A stretch of DNA of 33,373 bases from Candidatus Uhrbacteria bacterium CG22_combo_CG10-13_8_21_14_all_47_17 (GTDB lineage Bacteria > Patescibacteriota > Patescibacteriia > 2-12-FULL-60-25), in NCBI GenBank assembly GCA_002786495.1, contig PCSZ01000067.1, positions 1 through 33,373 on the forward strand, in the 5' to 3' direction. Below are positions 6,860 through 22,435 of the stretch, one piece after another. The notes under the pieces were generated by a model. It was given only the letters and a program-made list of their open reading frames with translations. It made no database searches and was not told the origin of the DNA. A program made the translations under genes and the position numbers. The first letter of the stretch is position 1; each line of letters begins with the position of its first letter.

Positions 6860-8785
6860 ATGCCTGAACAAGAAGCCATGTCATCAAAGAATGATATTTC
6901 AATGCCAAAAGCAAAACGAAAACGCTTTAAATTTTTAAGAAGTAAATGGTTCTGGATCGCAGCCGTCCTTATCCTCGGAGGGGGAATCTGGTACGCCTCG
7001 GCGAACAATGCGAATAAGGGCCCTTTTTATGAAACACAAAAAGTAGAAAAGGGTGAAGTGATCCAAACGGTCGAGGTAACGGGAGAAATCGTGCCGGAAG
7101 CTCGGCTTAATCTGGGTTTTAAAAGTGGCGGACCTCTCGAAAAGCTTGATGTACGAGTAGGACAGCAAGTGAAAGCGGGGACTGTCCTAGCAGAACTTGA
7201 ATCGAGGGATTTACGATTCGCTTCCGAGCGTGCGCGCGCCTCGCTTGCTATTGCGCAGGCTAATTTAAATGCGAAACTTGCGGGTGTAACGGACCAATCT
7301 ATCCAAGTTGCAAAGGCAGCCGTCGCGCAAGCGGAAGCATCACATGAAAAGGCGGTCGTGGATCTCGAGGTCACGAAACAAACGGTAGAAGATGATTACC
7401 AAAAAGCCCTTCTGACATTTCAGCTCGCGGAGAGCAATGTAGCGAACTCGGGTGCAACAGCAGATCAGAGTGTTGTGACAAGTTTTGAAAATTTGCGCGT
7501 AACGCTTCAAGCGGCACTTGCTCCCATGCGTAATGGCTTGGTGGATGGGGACGCAATCATCGGTATTGATAACTCGTCTGCAAATGATAATTACGAAAAT
7601 GTTCTCGGTATTTTTGATAAGCCCTCGCTTGCGGAAGCAAAAAATCTCTATCCGGCGACAAAAGCAGAGGTGAACGAAGCGGATGCATTGGTTCGAGCAC
7701 TTTCAAGCAGTTCAAGCCACGACGATGTATTGGCAGCGGCTCTCAAATCGCGAACAGCTCTTGAAGATGTTCAGCTCTATCTCACCTACGTGCAAAAAAC
7801 ATTGGCGGGAACGCTTACGAATCCTAATCTTACGCAGACGCAGCTTGATACGCTTCAAGCGGGAATTAGCGCGAATCTTACTTCTGCCGGAACGCAGCTC
7901 TCGAGTTTAGTTTCTGCTTATGAGTCTGCAAGGAACTCCGATCTCACGCGCCAAACAAGTATTGATCAACTGCAGAGCGCGTATGATACGGCGAAAATTA
8001 ATTTACAAATCGCGGATTCTGATCGAACGACAAAAGTAAAAACGGCTACAGCCGCTGTTCAAATTCAGCAAGCAGCGCTCGATAGTGCCAAGGCAACGCT
8101 AGCAGAACGAGAGGCGCCCGTGCGGGCGGTTGATGTTGTCGCATTTCGCGCGCAGGTATTGGATGCGCAAACCGCGTACAATCAATCGCTTGAGAAACTT
8201 GCGGATGTGCAAATTATTGCGCCGGTAAACGGAACGATTACCGATATTATCCCGAATCGCGGAGAGCTCGTTACGGCAAACCAAACAGCCGTTAAAATGA
8301 TTACCACGGACGGATACACGGTTGAGGCACTTGTTCCGGAAGCGGATATTGTCAAAGTTGAGCCGGGACAGTCCATCGATATCACGCTTGATGCCTATGG
8401 CGATAATGAAAAATTCGCAGGGACGGTTCTTTCAGAAAATGCTGACCAAACAAAAGTTCAGGATGCAATCTATTATAAAATATATGTAGAAATGGATCCG
8501 AAGGACAAAGATGTGAAGCCTGGCATGACGGCGAATCTAACCGTCAAAACCGGTGATCAAAAAGATGTCCTCGTTATTCCGAGCCGTTCACTGCGCGTAA
8601 CGAACGGAAATATGAGCGTTCGCGTTTTGCAGAATGGATCTCCCGTGGAAAAAACAATTACGATTGGTCTGCGTGGCGACGAAGGTCGCGTAGAAGCAGC
8701 GGCTGGATTAGAAGAAGGGGAAGAGGTTATTACGGGGGAGCTTACAGCGGCAGAATACCAAAGTCTGCAAGCCAGTAAGGAGTAA
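6860..8785 (+). CDS. HlyD/MacA-like periplasmic adaptor subunit of an ABC exporter
   Basis: N-terminal TM, VEVTGEIVPEARLNLGFKSGGPLEKLDVRVGQQVKAGTVLAELESRD (lipoyl half), long coiled coil, IIAPVNGTITDIIPNRGELVTANQ, C-terminal barrel. Confidence 0.9.
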   Translation: MPEQEAMSSKNDISMPKAKRKRFKFLRSKWFWIAAVLILGGGIWYASANNANKGPFYETQKVEKGEVIQTVEVTGEIVPEARLNLGFKSGGPLEKLDVRVGQQVKAGTVLAELESRDLRFASERARASLAIAQANLNAKLAGVTDQSIQVAKAAVAQAEASHEKAVVDLEVTKQTVEDDYQKALLTFQLAESNVANSGATADQSVVTSFENLRVTLQAALAPMRNGLVDGDAIIGIDNSSANDNYENVLGIFDKPSLAEAKNLYPATKAEVNEADALVRALSSSSSHDDVLAAALKSRTALEDVQLYLTYVQKTLAGTLTNPNLTQTQLDTLQAGISANLTSAGTQLSSLVSAYESARNSDLTRQTSIDQLQSAYDTAKINLQIADSDRTTKVKTATAAVQIQQAALDSAKATLAEREAPVRAVDVVAFRAQVLDAQTAYNQSLEKLADVQIIAPVNGTITDIIPNRGELVTANQTAVKMITTDGYTVEALVPEADIVKVEPGQSIDITLDAYGDNEKFAGTVLSENADQTKVQDAIYYKIYVEMDPKDKDVKPGMTANLTVKTGDQKDVLVIPSRSLRVTNGNMSVRVLQNGSPVEKTITIGLRGDEGRVEAAAGLEEGEEVITGELTAAEYQSLQASKE

Positions 8786-17165: not shown

Positions 17166-17190
17166 CCCGTGTTCGTTGTATGATGGAGGC

Positions 17191-17697
17191 ATGCACGGTT
17201 TCCTTGCTGTTTTTGACGCCTTCGGAATCCAACTAAGTTGGGATATTGGTATTGTTATTGGATTATTTCTTGCGAGCATTATTTATGGCATAACCGTTGG
17301 CCGTGATCGTGCGGTGCTTATTTTACTTTCAACCTATATTGCTCTCGCCGTCGTCACGAATGCGCCCATCGTTTCTTTTTTAAATCGATCATTAAATACG
17401 CAGGGCAATCCAACGATTCAGCTTGTCTGGTTTCTCGGCGTGTTTTTGCTGGTGTTTTTTCTTCTTTGGAAAAGTCATATGTTGAGAGGCATGGCGACGA
17501 ATGACGGAACCTGGTGGGAAGCGACCTTATTCAGCCTATTTCAAATCGGGCTCGCGACATCCATCGCGTTTTTCCTCTTACCGACAGAAATGACAGATCC
17601 GGTTCAAGGTATTTTGCGCCAACTCTTTTTGGATACAAATACGCGCTCTTTTTGGCTTATTACTCCGATTATTTTTCTTGCCTGGCTTGGGAGGTAG
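17191..17697 (+). CDS. Small polytopic membrane protein, unknown function
   Basis: Several hydrophobic segments (DIGIVIGLFLASIIYGITV, AVLILLSTYIALAVVTNAPIV, LVWFLGVFLLVFFLLW, FWLITPIIFLAWLG); GGAGG RBS upstream of ATG 17191. Confidence 0.6.
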   Translation: MHGFLAVFDAFGIQLSWDIGIVIGLFLASIIYGITVGRDRAVLILLSTYIALAVVTNAPIVSFLNRSLNTQGNPTIQLVWFLGVFLLVFFLLWKSHMLRGMATNDGTWWEATLFSLFQIGLATSIAFFLLPTEMTDPVQGILRQLFLDTNTRSFWLITPIIFLAWLGR

Positions 17698-17755: not shown

Positions 17756-18784
17756 ATGCGAGGTTCGCTCATCCTAACAGACGCAAAATCTGTTATTCTT
17801 TACTCAAGTAGTGATACGACTCTGAGGACAGGTTTTGATATACCGGAGATTATCGGGAAGCGTCCGGGGGATTTATGGGGCGGCCTCATGCCAGCAACCT
17901 TTTATCAAAAAATGTGGCGCAAAATACGATCGGGAGAAGGTTATGTCAGTCGCGTACTCAATAAGCACAAGGGTGGGGAGCAGGTGAAAGATACATTGAA
18001 TATTGTTCCGGTATTAGATGAGCATGGAGAAGCTCGCTATTTTCTTGAATTACATCCGGAACTAAATTCCATGATGCATAGGCGGCGTTTTCAGAAAGAT
18101 TTTCATGCTGTTGTAAAACCCGACGCGGACCCGGACGAGCTCGCGGAATTTCTCACAAGATGGTTTGCCTTTGACCAGCCCTTTCAGGCTGATTCGCGTG
18201 AACACTTTCTTGAAGATCTTCACGCGCAATTAGTGAAACCGAGTCAGGAACTTTTTCTTCACAGAGACGAAGATCGAGAATTGGTGATAGCGGCAAAAGC
18301 GCGTCCGGAAACATTCAAACAACTGTATATCAAATATCTTCCAAATATTCGTCGATTTTTTCACTTCCGTCTTGCGGATGCTGAACTTGCGGAGGATATG
18401 GCCCAGGATGTATTCCTACGCGCCTTTCGCGCGCTTGATTCCTATACGCCTTCCAATGCGTCCTATCTCACGTATTTATTGAGAATCGCCCACAATCAGC
18501 TTGTAAGCCATTACAGGGGCGCGCAAAACCAGCAGCTACTCACAGACCAAGAATCGTCCGATGGCTGGTTAGAGAGCTTCCTGCGCCGCGACGCGATTGA
18601 ACGCGCGCTCGTACATGTAACGGATATCGAACGTTCCATCGTTCTTAAGAAATATCGAGAAGGTCTGAGCGTTCGTGATATCGCCACAGAACTGAGCCGC
18701 TCTGAAAATGCCGTAAAACTCCATTTATCCCGGGCGCGAAAAAAGCTGAAGGACGTTATAACAAACAAGACGGAACTCCTTTGA
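17756..18784 (+). CDS. ECF-type RNA polymerase sigma factor with N-terminal PAS domain
   Basis: N-term ILTDAKSVILYSSSDTTLRTGFDIPEIIGKRPGDLWGGL..MWRKIRSGEGYVSRVLNKHKGGEQVKDTLNIVPVLDEHGEARYFLELHPE is PAS-like. C-term FKQLYIKYLPNIRRFFHFRLADAELAEDMAQDVFLRAFRAL (sigma region 2) and VTDIERSIVLKKYREGLSVRDIATELSRSENAVKLHLSRARKKLK (region 4). Confidence 0.88.
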   Translation: MRGSLILTDAKSVILYSSSDTTLRTGFDIPEIIGKRPGDLWGGLMPATFYQKMWRKIRSGEGYVSRVLNKHKGGEQVKDTLNIVPVLDEHGEARYFLELHPELNSMMHRRRFQKDFHAVVKPDADPDELAEFLTRWFAFDQPFQADSREHFLEDLHAQLVKPSQELFLHRDEDRELVIAAKARPETFKQLYIKYLPNIRRFFHFRLADAELAEDMAQDVFLRAFRALDSYTPSNASYLTYLLRIAHNQLVSHYRGAQNQQLLTDQESSDGWLESFLRRDAIERALVHVTDIERSIVLKKYREGLSVRDIATELSRSENAVKLHLSRARKKLKDVITNKTELL

Positions 18785-18807
18785 CACCTTTTGATCATTC
18801 CTGCGTT

Positions 18808-18829
18808 TAAGAGAGTACATTCTCTCTTA
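18808..18829. promoter_or_regulatory. Perfect inverted repeat at nrdD start (candidate operator or translational hairpin)
   Basis: TAAGAGAG-tacatt-CTCTCTTA; last base is the A of the nrdD ATG. Confidence 0.7.
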
Positions 18830-20946
18830 TGCCCATTTGCAAAATCCAAAAACGCAGCGGAGCCATCGTGGACTTCGACCTGCAAAAAATCCAAAAAGCG
18901 ATCGAAAATGCCGCGCAAGCGGTTGAGCAACGCGACGAAGCCGTTCCATTCGCCGTTGCAAAAGAAGTGTTTATTCGGCTGGAAGAGCTCTTTGACGGAG
19001 CCGTTCCTTCCGTGGAACAAATTCAAGACATTGTTGAGGAAGAGCTGATTCGTTTTGAATACGTTGATATTGCAAAGGCTTATATTCTCTATCGAGAAAA
19101 AAGGCGCGAAGCACGCGCGCGTCGAGATGTCGTCGTGGAAGTTGAAAAAACCATCCAGGAATATTTGAAAAAAGCGGACTGGCGCGTACAGGCCAACTCA
19201 AACCAAGGATATTCATTGGGCGGAATGATTTTAAACACAGCGGGAAAAGTGACGGCGAATTACTGGCTTTCCCATATTTATCCTTCAGCCATTGGTGATG
19301 CGCATCGAAACGCGGATATTCATATTCACGATCTCGATATGTTCTCCGGATACTGCGCCGGTTGGAGTTTGCGTGCTTTGCTTGAAGAAGGTTTTAACGG
19401 CGTGCCCGGAAAAATCGAATCCGGTCCTCCGAAACATTTGTCTTCCGCCGTGGCGCAAATGGTGAACTTCCTCGGTACATTGCAAAACGAATGGGCGGGT
19501 GCACAAGCTTTTTCGAGCTTTGATACCTACATGGCGCCCTTCGTGAGAAAGTATGAGATGGAAGTTCGTAAAAGAATTACAGACTCTCAAGCCAGTTTTC
19601 CGAATGAAAATTTATTGGAAGAAGCGGTTGAAGCGGAGGTGTATGACTATGTAAAACAAAACATGCAGTCATTCGTTTTCAACTTGAACATTCCATCGCG
19701 ATGGGGAACACAGACGCCGTTTACAAATATTACGCTTGATTGGACCTGTCCGGTTGACTTGCAGGACAAACGGCTGATTCTCGGAGGAAAGGATTTTGCC
19801 TATACATTTGGAGAGCTGGGAAAAGAAATGCAAATGGTGAATCGAGCCTTCATAGAAGTTATGACAGAAGGCGATCGCAACGGCCGAGCCTTCACCTTTC
19901 CGATTCCAACCTACAACATTACGAAAGATTTCAATTGGGAAGATCCGAACGCCAAACCTCTTTTCGAAATGACGGCAAAGTATGGAACGCCGTATTTTCA
20001 GAACTTCATAAACTCAGACATGGAACCGGGCGATGTACGATCCATGTGCTGCCGTCTTCAACTTGATTTGAAGGAATTGCGTAAGCGCGGCGGTGGATTA
20101 TTCGGTTCGGCGGAAATGACGGGATCCATTGGCGTTGTGACCATTAATGCGGCGCGCATTGGGTATCAATCTCGCGATACAAAAGAACGATTCTTCGAAC
20201 GGCTGGAGCATCTCATGGATCTTGGACAGACTTCTTTGGAAATTAAACGAAAAGAAATTCAAACGTGGATTGATCGTGGACTTTTTCCATACACGAAGCG
20301 GTATCTTGGAAGTCTGCGTAATCACTTCTCCACGATTGGCGTAAATGGATTGAATGAAGCGATTCGTAATTTCACGAATGACGCGGAAACAATCACGACG
20401 CCTTGGGGGCAGGAGTTTGCGAAAGAAGTGCTCGACTTCATGCGAGACAAATTAAAAGCGTATCAGGAAGAAACGGGAAATCTCTATAACTTAGAGGCGA
20501 CGCCTGCGGAAGGAACGACCTATCGTTTTGCGAAGGAAGACAAAAAACGCTTCCCGGACATCATTCAAGCGGGAACCGCAGAAGCGCCGTATTACACGAA
20601 CTCTTCTCAATTGCCGGTCGGCTATTCGGATGATGTCTTCGAGGCACTCGAGCTTCAAGACGAACTCCAAACCCGTTACACGGGCGGAACTGTTCTCCAT
20701 TGTTATATGGGAGAACGCATCAGCTCATCGGAAGCTTGTGCCAAACTCGTTCGCACCATCTTCTCAAATTTCCGTTTGCCTTACATTACGATTACGCCGA
20801 CGTTTAGCATTTGTCCTAAACACGGGTATCTAAAAGGCGAGTGGGATTTTTGCCCGACGTGCGACGAGGAGCTTGGTCTAAAGACAGATTCTCATTTCGA
20901 TGAGGACTATCGAAAGACCTATGTGAGCGCTTCGCCGGAGCGCTAA
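18829..20946 (+). CDS. nrdD: Anaerobic ribonucleoside-triphosphate reductase, catalytic core with ATP-cone, lacking the C-terminal glycyl-radical motif
   Basis: N-terminal ATP-cone (ICKIQKRSGAIVDFDLQKIQKAIENA), NrdD body (HIHDLDMFSGYCAGWSLRALL, SMCCRLQLDL, GLFGSAEMTGSIGVVTINAARIGY), C-terminal zinc site CPKHGYLKGEWDFCPTC. Stop comes before any RVxGY motif. Confidence 0.93.
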   Translation: MPICKIQKRSGAIVDFDLQKIQKAIENAAQAVEQRDEAVPFAVAKEVFIRLEELFDGAVPSVEQIQDIVEEELIRFEYVDIAKAYILYREKRREARARRDVVVEVEKTIQEYLKKADWRVQANSNQGYSLGGMILNTAGKVTANYWLSHIYPSAIGDAHRNADIHIHDLDMFSGYCAGWSLRALLEEGFNGVPGKIESGPPKHLSSAVAQMVNFLGTLQNEWAGAQAFSSFDTYMAPFVRKYEMEVRKRITDSQASFPNENLLEEAVEAEVYDYVKQNMQSFVFNLNIPSRWGTQTPFTNITLDWTCPVDLQDKRLILGGKDFAYTFGELGKEMQMVNRAFIEVMTEGDRNGRAFTFPIPTYNITKDFNWEDPNAKPLFEMTAKYGTPYFQNFINSDMEPGDVRSMCCRLQLDLKELRKRGGGLFGSAEMTGSIGVVTINAARIGYQSRDTKERFFERLEHLMDLGQTSLEIKRKEIQTWIDRGLFPYTKRYLGSLRNHFSTIGVNGLNEAIRNFTNDAETITTPWGQEFAKEVLDFMRDKLKAYQEETGNLYNLEATPAEGTTYRFAKEDKKRFPDIIQAGTAEAPYYTNSSQLPVGYSDDVFEALELQDELQTRYTGGTVLHCYMGERISSSEACAKLVRTIFSNFRLPYITITPTFSICPKHGYLKGEWDFCPTCDEELGLKTDSHFDEDYRKTYVSASPER

Positions 20947-20975: not shown

Positions 20976-21161
20976 ATGAATGCTGTAAATAACGAAAATC
21001 GTACACGCTGTGAAGTCTGGACCCGTGTCATGGGCTATCATCGCCCGGTTTCCAACTTCAACACAGGAAAAAAATCCGAACATTATTCACGGAAGCATTT
21101 TCAAGAGAGCGTCATGGCAAATGATGCTTTCATCAAGCGGTATAGCCGCGTATGCGGATAA
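20976..21161 (+). CDS. Stand-alone glycyl-radical domain of anaerobic ribonucleotide reductase
   Basis: MNAVNNENRTRCEVWTRVMGYHRPVSNFNTGKKSEHYSRKHF contains the NrdD-type RVxGYxRPV motif. Different frame from nrdD, 29 nt after its stop, overlapping nrdG start by 10 nt. Confidence 0.87.
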   Translation: MNAVNNENRTRCEVWTRVMGYHRPVSNFNTGKKSEHYSRKHFQESVMANDAFIKRYSRVCG

Positions 21162-21856
21162 GCGCCGTTCAAAAATTTACAACCCTGGATTATCCCGGAA
21201 AAACAGCCTGCGTCGTTTTTACAGCAGGCTGTAATTTTCGGTGCGGCTATTGTCACAATCCGGAATTCGTTCTGCCGGAACAGCTAAAAGAGCTTGAAGA
21301 TCACTTTATCCCTGGCGAAGTCTTTTGGAGTTTTCTCGAAACGCGACGTGGTCTCTTGGACGGCGTTGCCGTTTCCGGCGGGGAGCCGACGCTTCAGCGA
21401 GATCTTCCGGATTTTCTTCGACGTATAAAACAAATGGGTTTTGCGGTAAAACTCGATACAAATGGCGGTTTGCCGGAAATTCTTCGACCTATTCTTGAGG
21501 AAAAATTAGCAGATTATGTAGCGATGGATGTAAAAACCTCGCTTCTTCGTTATACTGAGCTGGTCGGAGCCTGCGTCCGTCCCGAGGCGGTTCAAGAAAG
21601 TATTAAACTTATCCGTGAACTTGCCCCCAATTATGAATTCCGCACGACCATTGTGCGCGAGCATCATGACGCGGAAACGCTCGAGAATATGCGTGAACTC
21701 GTTCGTGGCGCTCGACGCTATGCGCTTCAAGGCTTTCGTTCCGGTAAAACATTAGATCCTGCTTTTTCCGCATATGCAGACATAAGGGAAAAAGAACTTG
21801 AAACAATCGGGGCCTTGTTTGCCACGGAAGTCGACGAATTAATCTTCCGCCATTAA
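21152..21856 (+). CDS. nrdG: Anaerobic ribonucleoside-triphosphate reductase activating protein (radical SAM)
   Basis: TTLDYPGKTACVVFTAGCNFRCGYCHNPEFV (CxxxCxxC), GVAVSGGEPTLQ, VKLDTNG. Confidence 0.92.
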   Translation: MRISAVQKFTTLDYPGKTACVVFTAGCNFRCGYCHNPEFVLPEQLKELEDHFIPGEVFWSFLETRRGLLDGVAVSGGEPTLQRDLPDFLRRIKQMGFAVKLDTNGGLPEILRPILEEKLADYVAMDVKTSLLRYTELVGACVRPEAVQESIKLIRELAPNYEFRTTIVREHHDAETLENMRELVRGARRYALQGFRSGKTLDPAFSAYADIREKELETIGALFATEVDELIFRH

Positions 21857-21865
21857 CCTCACTGT

Positions 21866-22435
21866 ATGAATACACAATCGCTGACAAATGTTCTCGCTTT
21901 TCTTACGCTTGCGGGTGATATCGGGCTTGTCGCTCTCGTGCTTGTTTGGCTTGCGTCTTATGTCGCATCGCCAGCGAAACGTCTTCTGAATTTCGTGATT
22001 GATTTCATGCATGGCAAAGACGGAGCCTTTGCGTTTCTTGTAGCCGTCCTCTCCATGAGTGGAAGTCTGTTCTATTCAGAAGTGGCAAAACTTACGCCTT
22101 GTCTCATGTGTTGGTATCAGCGCATTGTGATGTATCCTTTGGTTATTATTTTTGGCGTTGATTTTTTCAAAAAGAAACCGGCGATTCGCGACCATGCTCT
22201 CGTTCTGGCAAGTATAGGAATCTTGCTTTCAACCTATCAGTATCTTTTACAATTTGGCGTTATCAAGGCTTCGAGCTGTGAGGTGAACGGTGCCGGCGTT
22301 TCCTGCGCGCAAAAACTCACACTCAATTACGGCTATATCACCATTCCCATGATGACGCTTACGGCTTTTGCGCTCATCATCACAGCATTGCTGCTGGGAA
22401 AAGCCGCGGATCGACGCAAGGCGCAAAAAGTCTAA
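21866..22435 (+). CDS. Disulfide bond formation protein, DsbB/BdbC family
   Basis: LTPCLMCWYQRIVMYPLVIIFGV (CxxC), second cysteine pair ASSCEVNGAGVSC, multiple TM segments. Confidence 0.85.
   Translation: MNTQSLTNVLAFLTLAGDIGLVALVLVWLASYVASPAKRLLNFVIDFMHGKDGAFAFLVAVLSMSGSLFYSEVAKLTPCLMCWYQRIVMYPLVIIFGVDFFKKKPAIRDHALVLASIGILLSTYQYLLQFGVIKASSCEVNGAGVSCAQKLTLNYGYITIPMMTLTAFALIITALLLGKAADRRKAQKV

Follow-up and report, generated by a model that had tools for sequence, protein, structure and literature searches.

The window, which is the whole 33,373-nucleotide stretch of Candidatus Uhrbacteria DNA analysed here, derives from a host genome of 0.89 Mb in the same class as Ca. Magasanikbacteria. On its plus strand, a gene with an ATG start (17756–18784) encodes a PAS domain fused to an ECF sigma factor in one clean frame of 342 amino acids, as judged from profiles and AlphaFold2. 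The PAS domain, of the NifL/Aer (FAD) type by profiles, phmmer and Foldseek, takes up residues 5–105 (17768–18070). It is followed by a linker of three helices at residues 106–166 (18071–18253), which AlphaFold2 predicts and whose position is conserved across the family. Sigma region 2 (18266–18544, with a Pfam match at 18323–18526) and sigma region 4 with its helix-turn-helix (18590–18748) complete the protein, both supported by Pfam and AlphaFold2. The sigma stop codon lies 44 bases before nrdD, placing the gene upstream of the anaerobic ribonucleotide reductase (RNR) genes, as a sequence-only reading of this DNA had correctly stated. Those genes, also on the plus strand, are nrdD (18829–20946), a class III reductase without its glycyl-radical C-terminus that covers positions 2–529 of the 562 in the NRDD profile; an open reading frame (ORF) of 61 amino acids with the glycyl-radical domain (RCEVWTRVMGYHRPVSNFNTGKK; 20976–21161), which matches NRDD 529–562 at 3.3e-08; and nrdG (21152–21856), the radical-SAM activase (TIGR02495, 1.4e-59), which overlaps the end of the radical-domain ORF.

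Sigma70_r2 (residues 190–257, 2.7e-14) and Sigma70_r4_2 (residues 279–331, 2.9e-12) both score above their Pfam cut-offs, as does TIGR02937, the NCBIfam model of the ECF superfamily, above its own (5e-21); none of the NCBIfam ECF subfamily or equivalog models exceeds its cut-off against the window protein. With regions 2 and 4 only, a short linker between them and neither region 1.1 nor region 3, the sigma half has the make-up of an ECF sigma factor, and in a Foldseek search of the PDB it matches BldN, AlgU and SigW. By itself, the PAS domain falls slightly below the Pfam cut-offs (PAS_9, 4.3e-05). The doubt that those scores alone would leave is lifted by the NifL model TIGR02938, which matches residues 7–106 at 1.2e-14, and by solved structures: phmmer pairs the domain with the FAD-PAS of Azotobacter NifL (2gj3) at 3.5e-11, and Foldseek places 2gj3 first and Aer (8dik) fourth among its PDB matches. 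AlphaFold2, given an 11-sequence family alignment, returns a mean pLDDT of 84 for the whole protein and about 91 for the PAS fold, with a pTM of 0.54 that makes the relative placement of the domains uncertain. Its layout is PAS 1–100, three helices 106–166, sigma region 2 at 171–263 and sigma region 4 at 278–341. The fusion proposed in the sequence-only reading is thus borne out by profiles, by predicted fold and by the same fusion in 14 other genomes; the absence of a PAS fold, which that reading had allowed for, is excluded by the NifL profile, the 2gj3 match and the AlphaFold2 model. Its PAS boundaries of about 5–105 stand, 4–105 being nearer, and its longer linker, with sigma beginning at about residue 195, gives way to helices at 106–166 and sigma from about 171.

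Further cases were sought in 57 relatives, 381 genomes of the class, 380 of the phylum and 46 of one family. PAS domain, linker and sigma occur in one frame in 15 Patescibacteria genomes, the window's included (alignment A3), and the members are 29–40% identical to the window protein. In a scan of contigs, locus L040 (JABIEQ010000011.1) is the sole full-length member among the matches listed, the rest being sigma-only; it is the same contig as G292:C11. Between two members of one genus, G027 and G032, the PAS part has a pN of 0.20 against a pS of 0.86, and nonsynonymous differences per site are far fewer than synonymous ones in the linker and sigma parts as well, which indicates that the PAS domain is maintained by purifying selection. 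This selection, with the identical domain order in 14 other genomes, rules out a chance or artefactual fusion.

At the loci read, nrdD is the sole consistently associated neighbour of the PAS-sigma. Members G286 and G500 lack nrdD, which counts against a sigma dedicated to that gene, and G500 has also lost the flavin Asn discussed below. No anti-sigma gene consistently accompanies the PAS-sigma across the loci, in agreement with the earlier remark that none is adjacent. The idea of a one-component sensory sigma gains support from the conserved fusion and from a promoter-like element at nrdD, evidence that goes beyond mere adjacency. Separately, a second, ordinary ECF sigma and a possible membrane protein lie just upstream of the PAS-sigma in G011 (L032 7912–8981, reverse-complement coordinates) and G032 (L035 4231–5300). 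The possible membrane protein is a candidate anti-sigma, and the pair was not seen at the remaining loci.

The promoter-like element at nrdD

A -35-like TGACACC followed by TTTT (18782–18788, plus strand) overlaps the sigma stop codon, and a -10-like GTTTA (18805–18809, plus strand, within TGCGTTTAA) lies beyond it. Both are conserved in the family, and the window's element is the sole exact match within its genome. The first five members share a common non-coding sequence 3' of the sigma stop codon; across the family the element reads TGACACC-TTTT-N11/13-GTTTA, with a nearly fixed 15–17 nt from GACACC to GTTTA. Judged against the general ECF pattern, its layout is like that of an ECF -35/-10 promoter whose spacer starts T-rich.

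The element tracks the sigma gene. It lies directly upstream of nrdD in 14/14 genomes with both sigma and nrdD (13 PAS-bearing, plus the PAS-less G746), and upstream of nrdD in 0/12 genomes that have nrdD without the sigma. Across the 381 genomes of the class, the exact pattern is found in 9/10 genomes with sigma and nrdD, as a single copy that lies at nrdD every time; it occurs in 9/371 other genomes, about the background rate of a reversed control pattern. The tenth, G032, deviates in the GTTTA part and is therefore missed by the exact pattern. Fisher values are 1e-7 for the nrdD comparison and 1e-12 for the class-wide one, and both overstate independence because the genomes are related. Four genomes that were not used in defining the element (G733, G744, G746 and G747) all have it.

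The element also stays with nrdD when the two genes are apart. It is found 0.7 kb downstream of sigma in G351, about 9 kb from sigma in G139 (where the intervening sequence is masked), and on the strand opposite to a divergent sigma in G747. These positions, remote from the sigma gene, rule out that the element merely comes along with the sigma stop codon. In G744 (L233, about 7684–7710) a second copy immediately precedes the separate glycyl-radical ORF and would permit expression of that ORF independently of nrdD. The moved positions and this second copy are the least dependent evidence for the tie between element and nrdD.

At 7/15 sites, a terminator-like GGTGT...GACACC-T-run hairpin has GACACC as its 3' arm, and in G286, where nrdD is missing, a hairpin of this type occurs with no GTTTA part. 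The element might accordingly be a remnant of an intrinsic terminator, or the operator of another regulator, with the sigma acting elsewhere. We consider this improbable: at 8/15 sites the hairpin arm is absent yet GACACC-TTTT and GTTTA are kept at 15–17 nt, the element is at nrdD where the sigma gene is not, it precedes the radical ORF in G744, and none was seen ahead of nrdD in genomes without the sigma. Where the hairpin occurs upstream of nrdD (G011, G139, G292, G312, G322, G744 and G747), the same bases seem to serve both as terminator and as promoter, an arrangement that might shield nrdD from transcription begun further upstream.

That the PAS-sigma would drive nrdD is strongly supported by these comparisons, and it very probably does so by reading the TGACACC-TTTT-...-GTTTA element. 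The element did not turn up in front of the sigma gene, whose own expression the model therefore does not explain, and this counts against our main reading. A scan allowing two mismatches gave extra matches only at control level, so that a wider regulon is set aside and the regulon looks like one operon.

A sigma-like part need not initiate transcription. In PhyR, a response regulator with a sigma-like domain and a known sensor-sigma fusion of such a kind (PMC8103513), the sigma part is a non-initiating mimic, and the protein described here could likewise titrate another regulator when its PAS domain is triggered. Such a role seems highly implausible to us, as the core-binding and helix-turn-helix motifs are conserved (AEDxxQ, TYLLRIAHN, SENAxKLxLSRARKKL), the promoter-like element correlates with the presence of the sigma, and the loci read show no consistent partner gene.

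The window also carries an inverted repeat, AAGAGAG-TACATT-CTCTCTT (18809–18828, plus strand), in the interval from the -10-like element to the start of nrdD. Hairpins of unrelated sequence occupy the same place in G018, G027, G032 and G733 (loci noted: L033, L034, L035, L232 and L167), the arms, those of the window included, being AAGAGAG/CTCTCTT, GGTACGGA/TCCGTACC and ACTCCTT/AAGGAGT; in G733 a T-run follows the hairpin on its 3' side. A 5' mRNA structure or an attenuator is possible.

NrdR boxes and the class I reductase

RNR genes are usually repressed by NrdR, which acts at two boxes with the consensus acaCwAtATaTwGtg (PMC4009431). Such boxes stand upstream of nrdD in 10/12 genomes without the sigma, mostly in tandem at 32–33 bp, and in 0/14 genomes with it, allowing up to 3 mismatches. 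At the window's nrdD, no tandem ACACWATATATWGTG boxes occur in about 400 nt upstream with up to 4 mismatches; NrdR boxes are present upstream of the host genome's class I genes. A class I-type RNR is found in 13/14 genomes with sigma and nrdD, the identification resting on NrdA and NrdB models for G000 and on NrdA models for G292. All 13 have NrdR boxes upstream of the class I reductase, as a pair 32–33 bp apart in 11 of them. NrdR itself is present in 12/14 genomes with sigma and nrdD, some of the compared genomes being draft assemblies, and this, with the boxes that remain at class I, rules out an outright replacement of NrdR. Rather, the same genome has NrdR boxes at its class I genes and the sigma element at class III. 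The loci offer a clean example of a regulator swap at a single gene, from NrdR boxes to a predicted sigma promoter.

One member departs from the pattern. In G746 (L234 677–1363, minus strand) a sigma ORF of 229 amino acids starts inside the linker, with no PAS domain upstream. Neither a class I match nor NrdR is found in this genome, whose nrdD still carries the element. It is the only PAS-less member and the only one of 14 without a class I match; if class III does not take turns with an aerobic enzyme, sensing oxygen would be superfluous, a hint that comes from one genome in 110 contigs.

The PAS pocket and a proposed redox switch

The residues of NifL that contact the isoalloxazine or adenine of FAD are described (PMC8063818, PMC12540587), and several have counterparts here. 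Asn102 (N69), Tyr83 (Y50) and Thr41 (T8) are kept in 13/13 nrdD-linked members and Trp87 (W54) in 12/13; His133 corresponds to H100 in the window, a position that is H, Q or T across these members. Ser39, Glu70, Arg80 and Tyr110 are not kept in the family, which counts against our main reading. Of the NifL hydrogen-bond network Ser39/Glu70/Tyr110/His133, the window thus retains H100 alone, the others being I6, P37 and V77. A large survey names the F-alpha Trp as the main determinant of FAD binding, with Asn and His secondary (PMC10468136), and W54, N69 and H100 supply this combination of Trp with Asn and/or His. The PAS domain averages only 38% identity, yet the Trp and the flavin Asn are kept, so by the rule of the survey flavin binding is likely. 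The change of Glu70 to Pro or Ala may mean a chemistry different from that of NifL. A LOV or blue-light reading is ruled out: the photoactive Cys of GxNCRFLQ is missing from the window's GKRPGDLW, and 13/13 members checked have Pro or Ala at the corresponding position (37).

The sigma could also be dedicated to nrdD while its PAS domain binds another ligand, mediates sigma dimerisation or offers a docking site for a protein. S-box-type PAS domains are often of unknown ligand, and the four lost NifL residues and the sub-threshold Pfam scores of the PAS domain alone point the same way. We nonetheless regard this as unlikely, given that the NifL FAD-PAS is the best match in sequence and fold among solved structures, that the F-alpha Trp and flavin Asn persist despite the low mean identity, and that the sole PAS-less member is the sole genome of 14 without a class I match. 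Our preference is that the PAS domain binds flavin and senses redox, which these residues make probable. The control by redox or oxygen that had been suggested from gene position is something we infer from the pocket Asn and Trp, the coexistence of class I and class III reductases, and the loss of the PAS domain in G746.

We propose a model in which the protein is a one-component, flavin/redox-gated sigma factor dedicated to the class III reductase, a single-polypeptide signal transducer, and we judge this reading to be reasonably likely. The N-terminal PAS domain, probably with FAD, would read oxygen or the cellular redox state and act through the three-helix linker on the loading of RNA polymerase by the sigma. 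When oxidised, the PAS domain would hold the sigma via the helical linker; reduction would free it. The freed sigma would start transcription 5–10 nt after 18809, from one promoter type at 18782–18809, and nrdD, the radical-domain ORF and nrdG would be transcribed together. The oxygen-labile class III reductase would then be made only when able to work, and the class I reductase of the same genome would remain under NrdR. Class III RNR is functional only in the absence of oxygen, and we chose the sign of the switch for this reason; that the reduced, anaerobic state is the active one is, in our estimation, the better supposition. Reduced NifL, for comparison, releases NifA (PMC12540587).

A bolder version, which we hold tentatively, is that in some Patescibacteria a flavin-gated, one-promoter sigma took the oxygen switch over from NrdR, with a two-piece reductase as its target whose radical part, provided in one genome with its own copy of the putative promoter, could be replaced after oxygen damage. 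To our knowledge, very small genomes usually lack elaborate oxygen regulators, and the system may be a concrete case of how they alternate between aerobic and anaerobic synthesis of DNA precursors.

Related systems and the split reductase

ECF sigma factors with regulatory extensions are a known kind, with at least 26 groups (PMC8999054). Like the PAS-sigma, they carry a sensor or regulatory domain on the sigma, with no anti-sigma gene alongside (PMC8999054, PMC8103513); our family shares these traits in its PAS domain and linker, conserved in 15 genomes, and in having no cognate anti-sigma alongside. The extensions described are mostly C-terminal, whereas the one here is N-terminal. Reported N-terminal cases come from Planctomycetes (former ECF87–89) and from ECF36 with DUF2275, and they are mechanistically unstudied; according to a 2021 review, mechanistic information on N-terminal extensions is lacking (PMC8103513). 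The passages covered of these two sources make no mention of a PAS extension (PMC8999054, PMC8103513), and no PAS-ECF fusion was found in the literature searched, a body that stops short of the main ECF classification (10.1093/nar/gkaa1229). The type of extension is therefore known and the PAS-ECF fusion apparently new, although it may belong to a catalogued ECF group.

NifL PAS1 (2GJ3), Aer and MmoS are FAD-PAS redox sensors, and NifL is a redox gate on transcription, as we propose here. NifL, however, gates a separate activator, NifA, and has Glu70 and Ser39, whereas here the PAS domain and its proposed output, a sigma, form one polypeptide. Control by NrdR (RNRs) and by FNR (E. coli nrdDG) has the same target operon as proposed for the PAS-sigma and serves the same end, a reductase class that fits the conditions (PMC4009431). 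FNR activates and NrdR represses from tandem boxes, whereas here a sigma would take the nrdD promoter. OrbS is, as we propose for the PAS-sigma, an ECF with on-board sensing, but it is reported to sense iron (PMC9023288). Among sensing ECF sigmas with an N-terminal extension, the present one has its ligand, its promoter and a single target operon all predicted, so that one gene and about 50 bp of DNA could suffice to reconstitute the whole circuit in vitro.

The target itself is in two pieces: in the window the large NrdD ORF stops after the Zn region, and the radical ORF has its own start codon. NrdD is likewise split in G011, G018, G027, G032, G139, G292, G312, G322, G733, G744 and G747. Three genomes without the sigma (G161, G180 and G317) also have a split NrdD, which counts against our main reading; in eight sigma-free genomes of the window's family, NrdD is in one piece. 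The separate glycyl-radical ORF resembles YfiD/GrcA, the spare part of pyruvate formate-lyase, and spare parts have been suggested to exist for other glycyl radical enzymes (PMC8683613). On contig C11 of G254 (L174/L176), NrdD is interrupted at profile position 156 by about 960 bases of open frame, possibly an intein.

Two further genes flank the system in the window. Between dnaJ and the sigma gene lies a putative membrane protein of 173 amino acids (17176–17697), which has no Pfam match and is conserved beside dnaJ in the window's family, and 3' of nrdG lies a gene for a DsbB-family protein (21866–22435).
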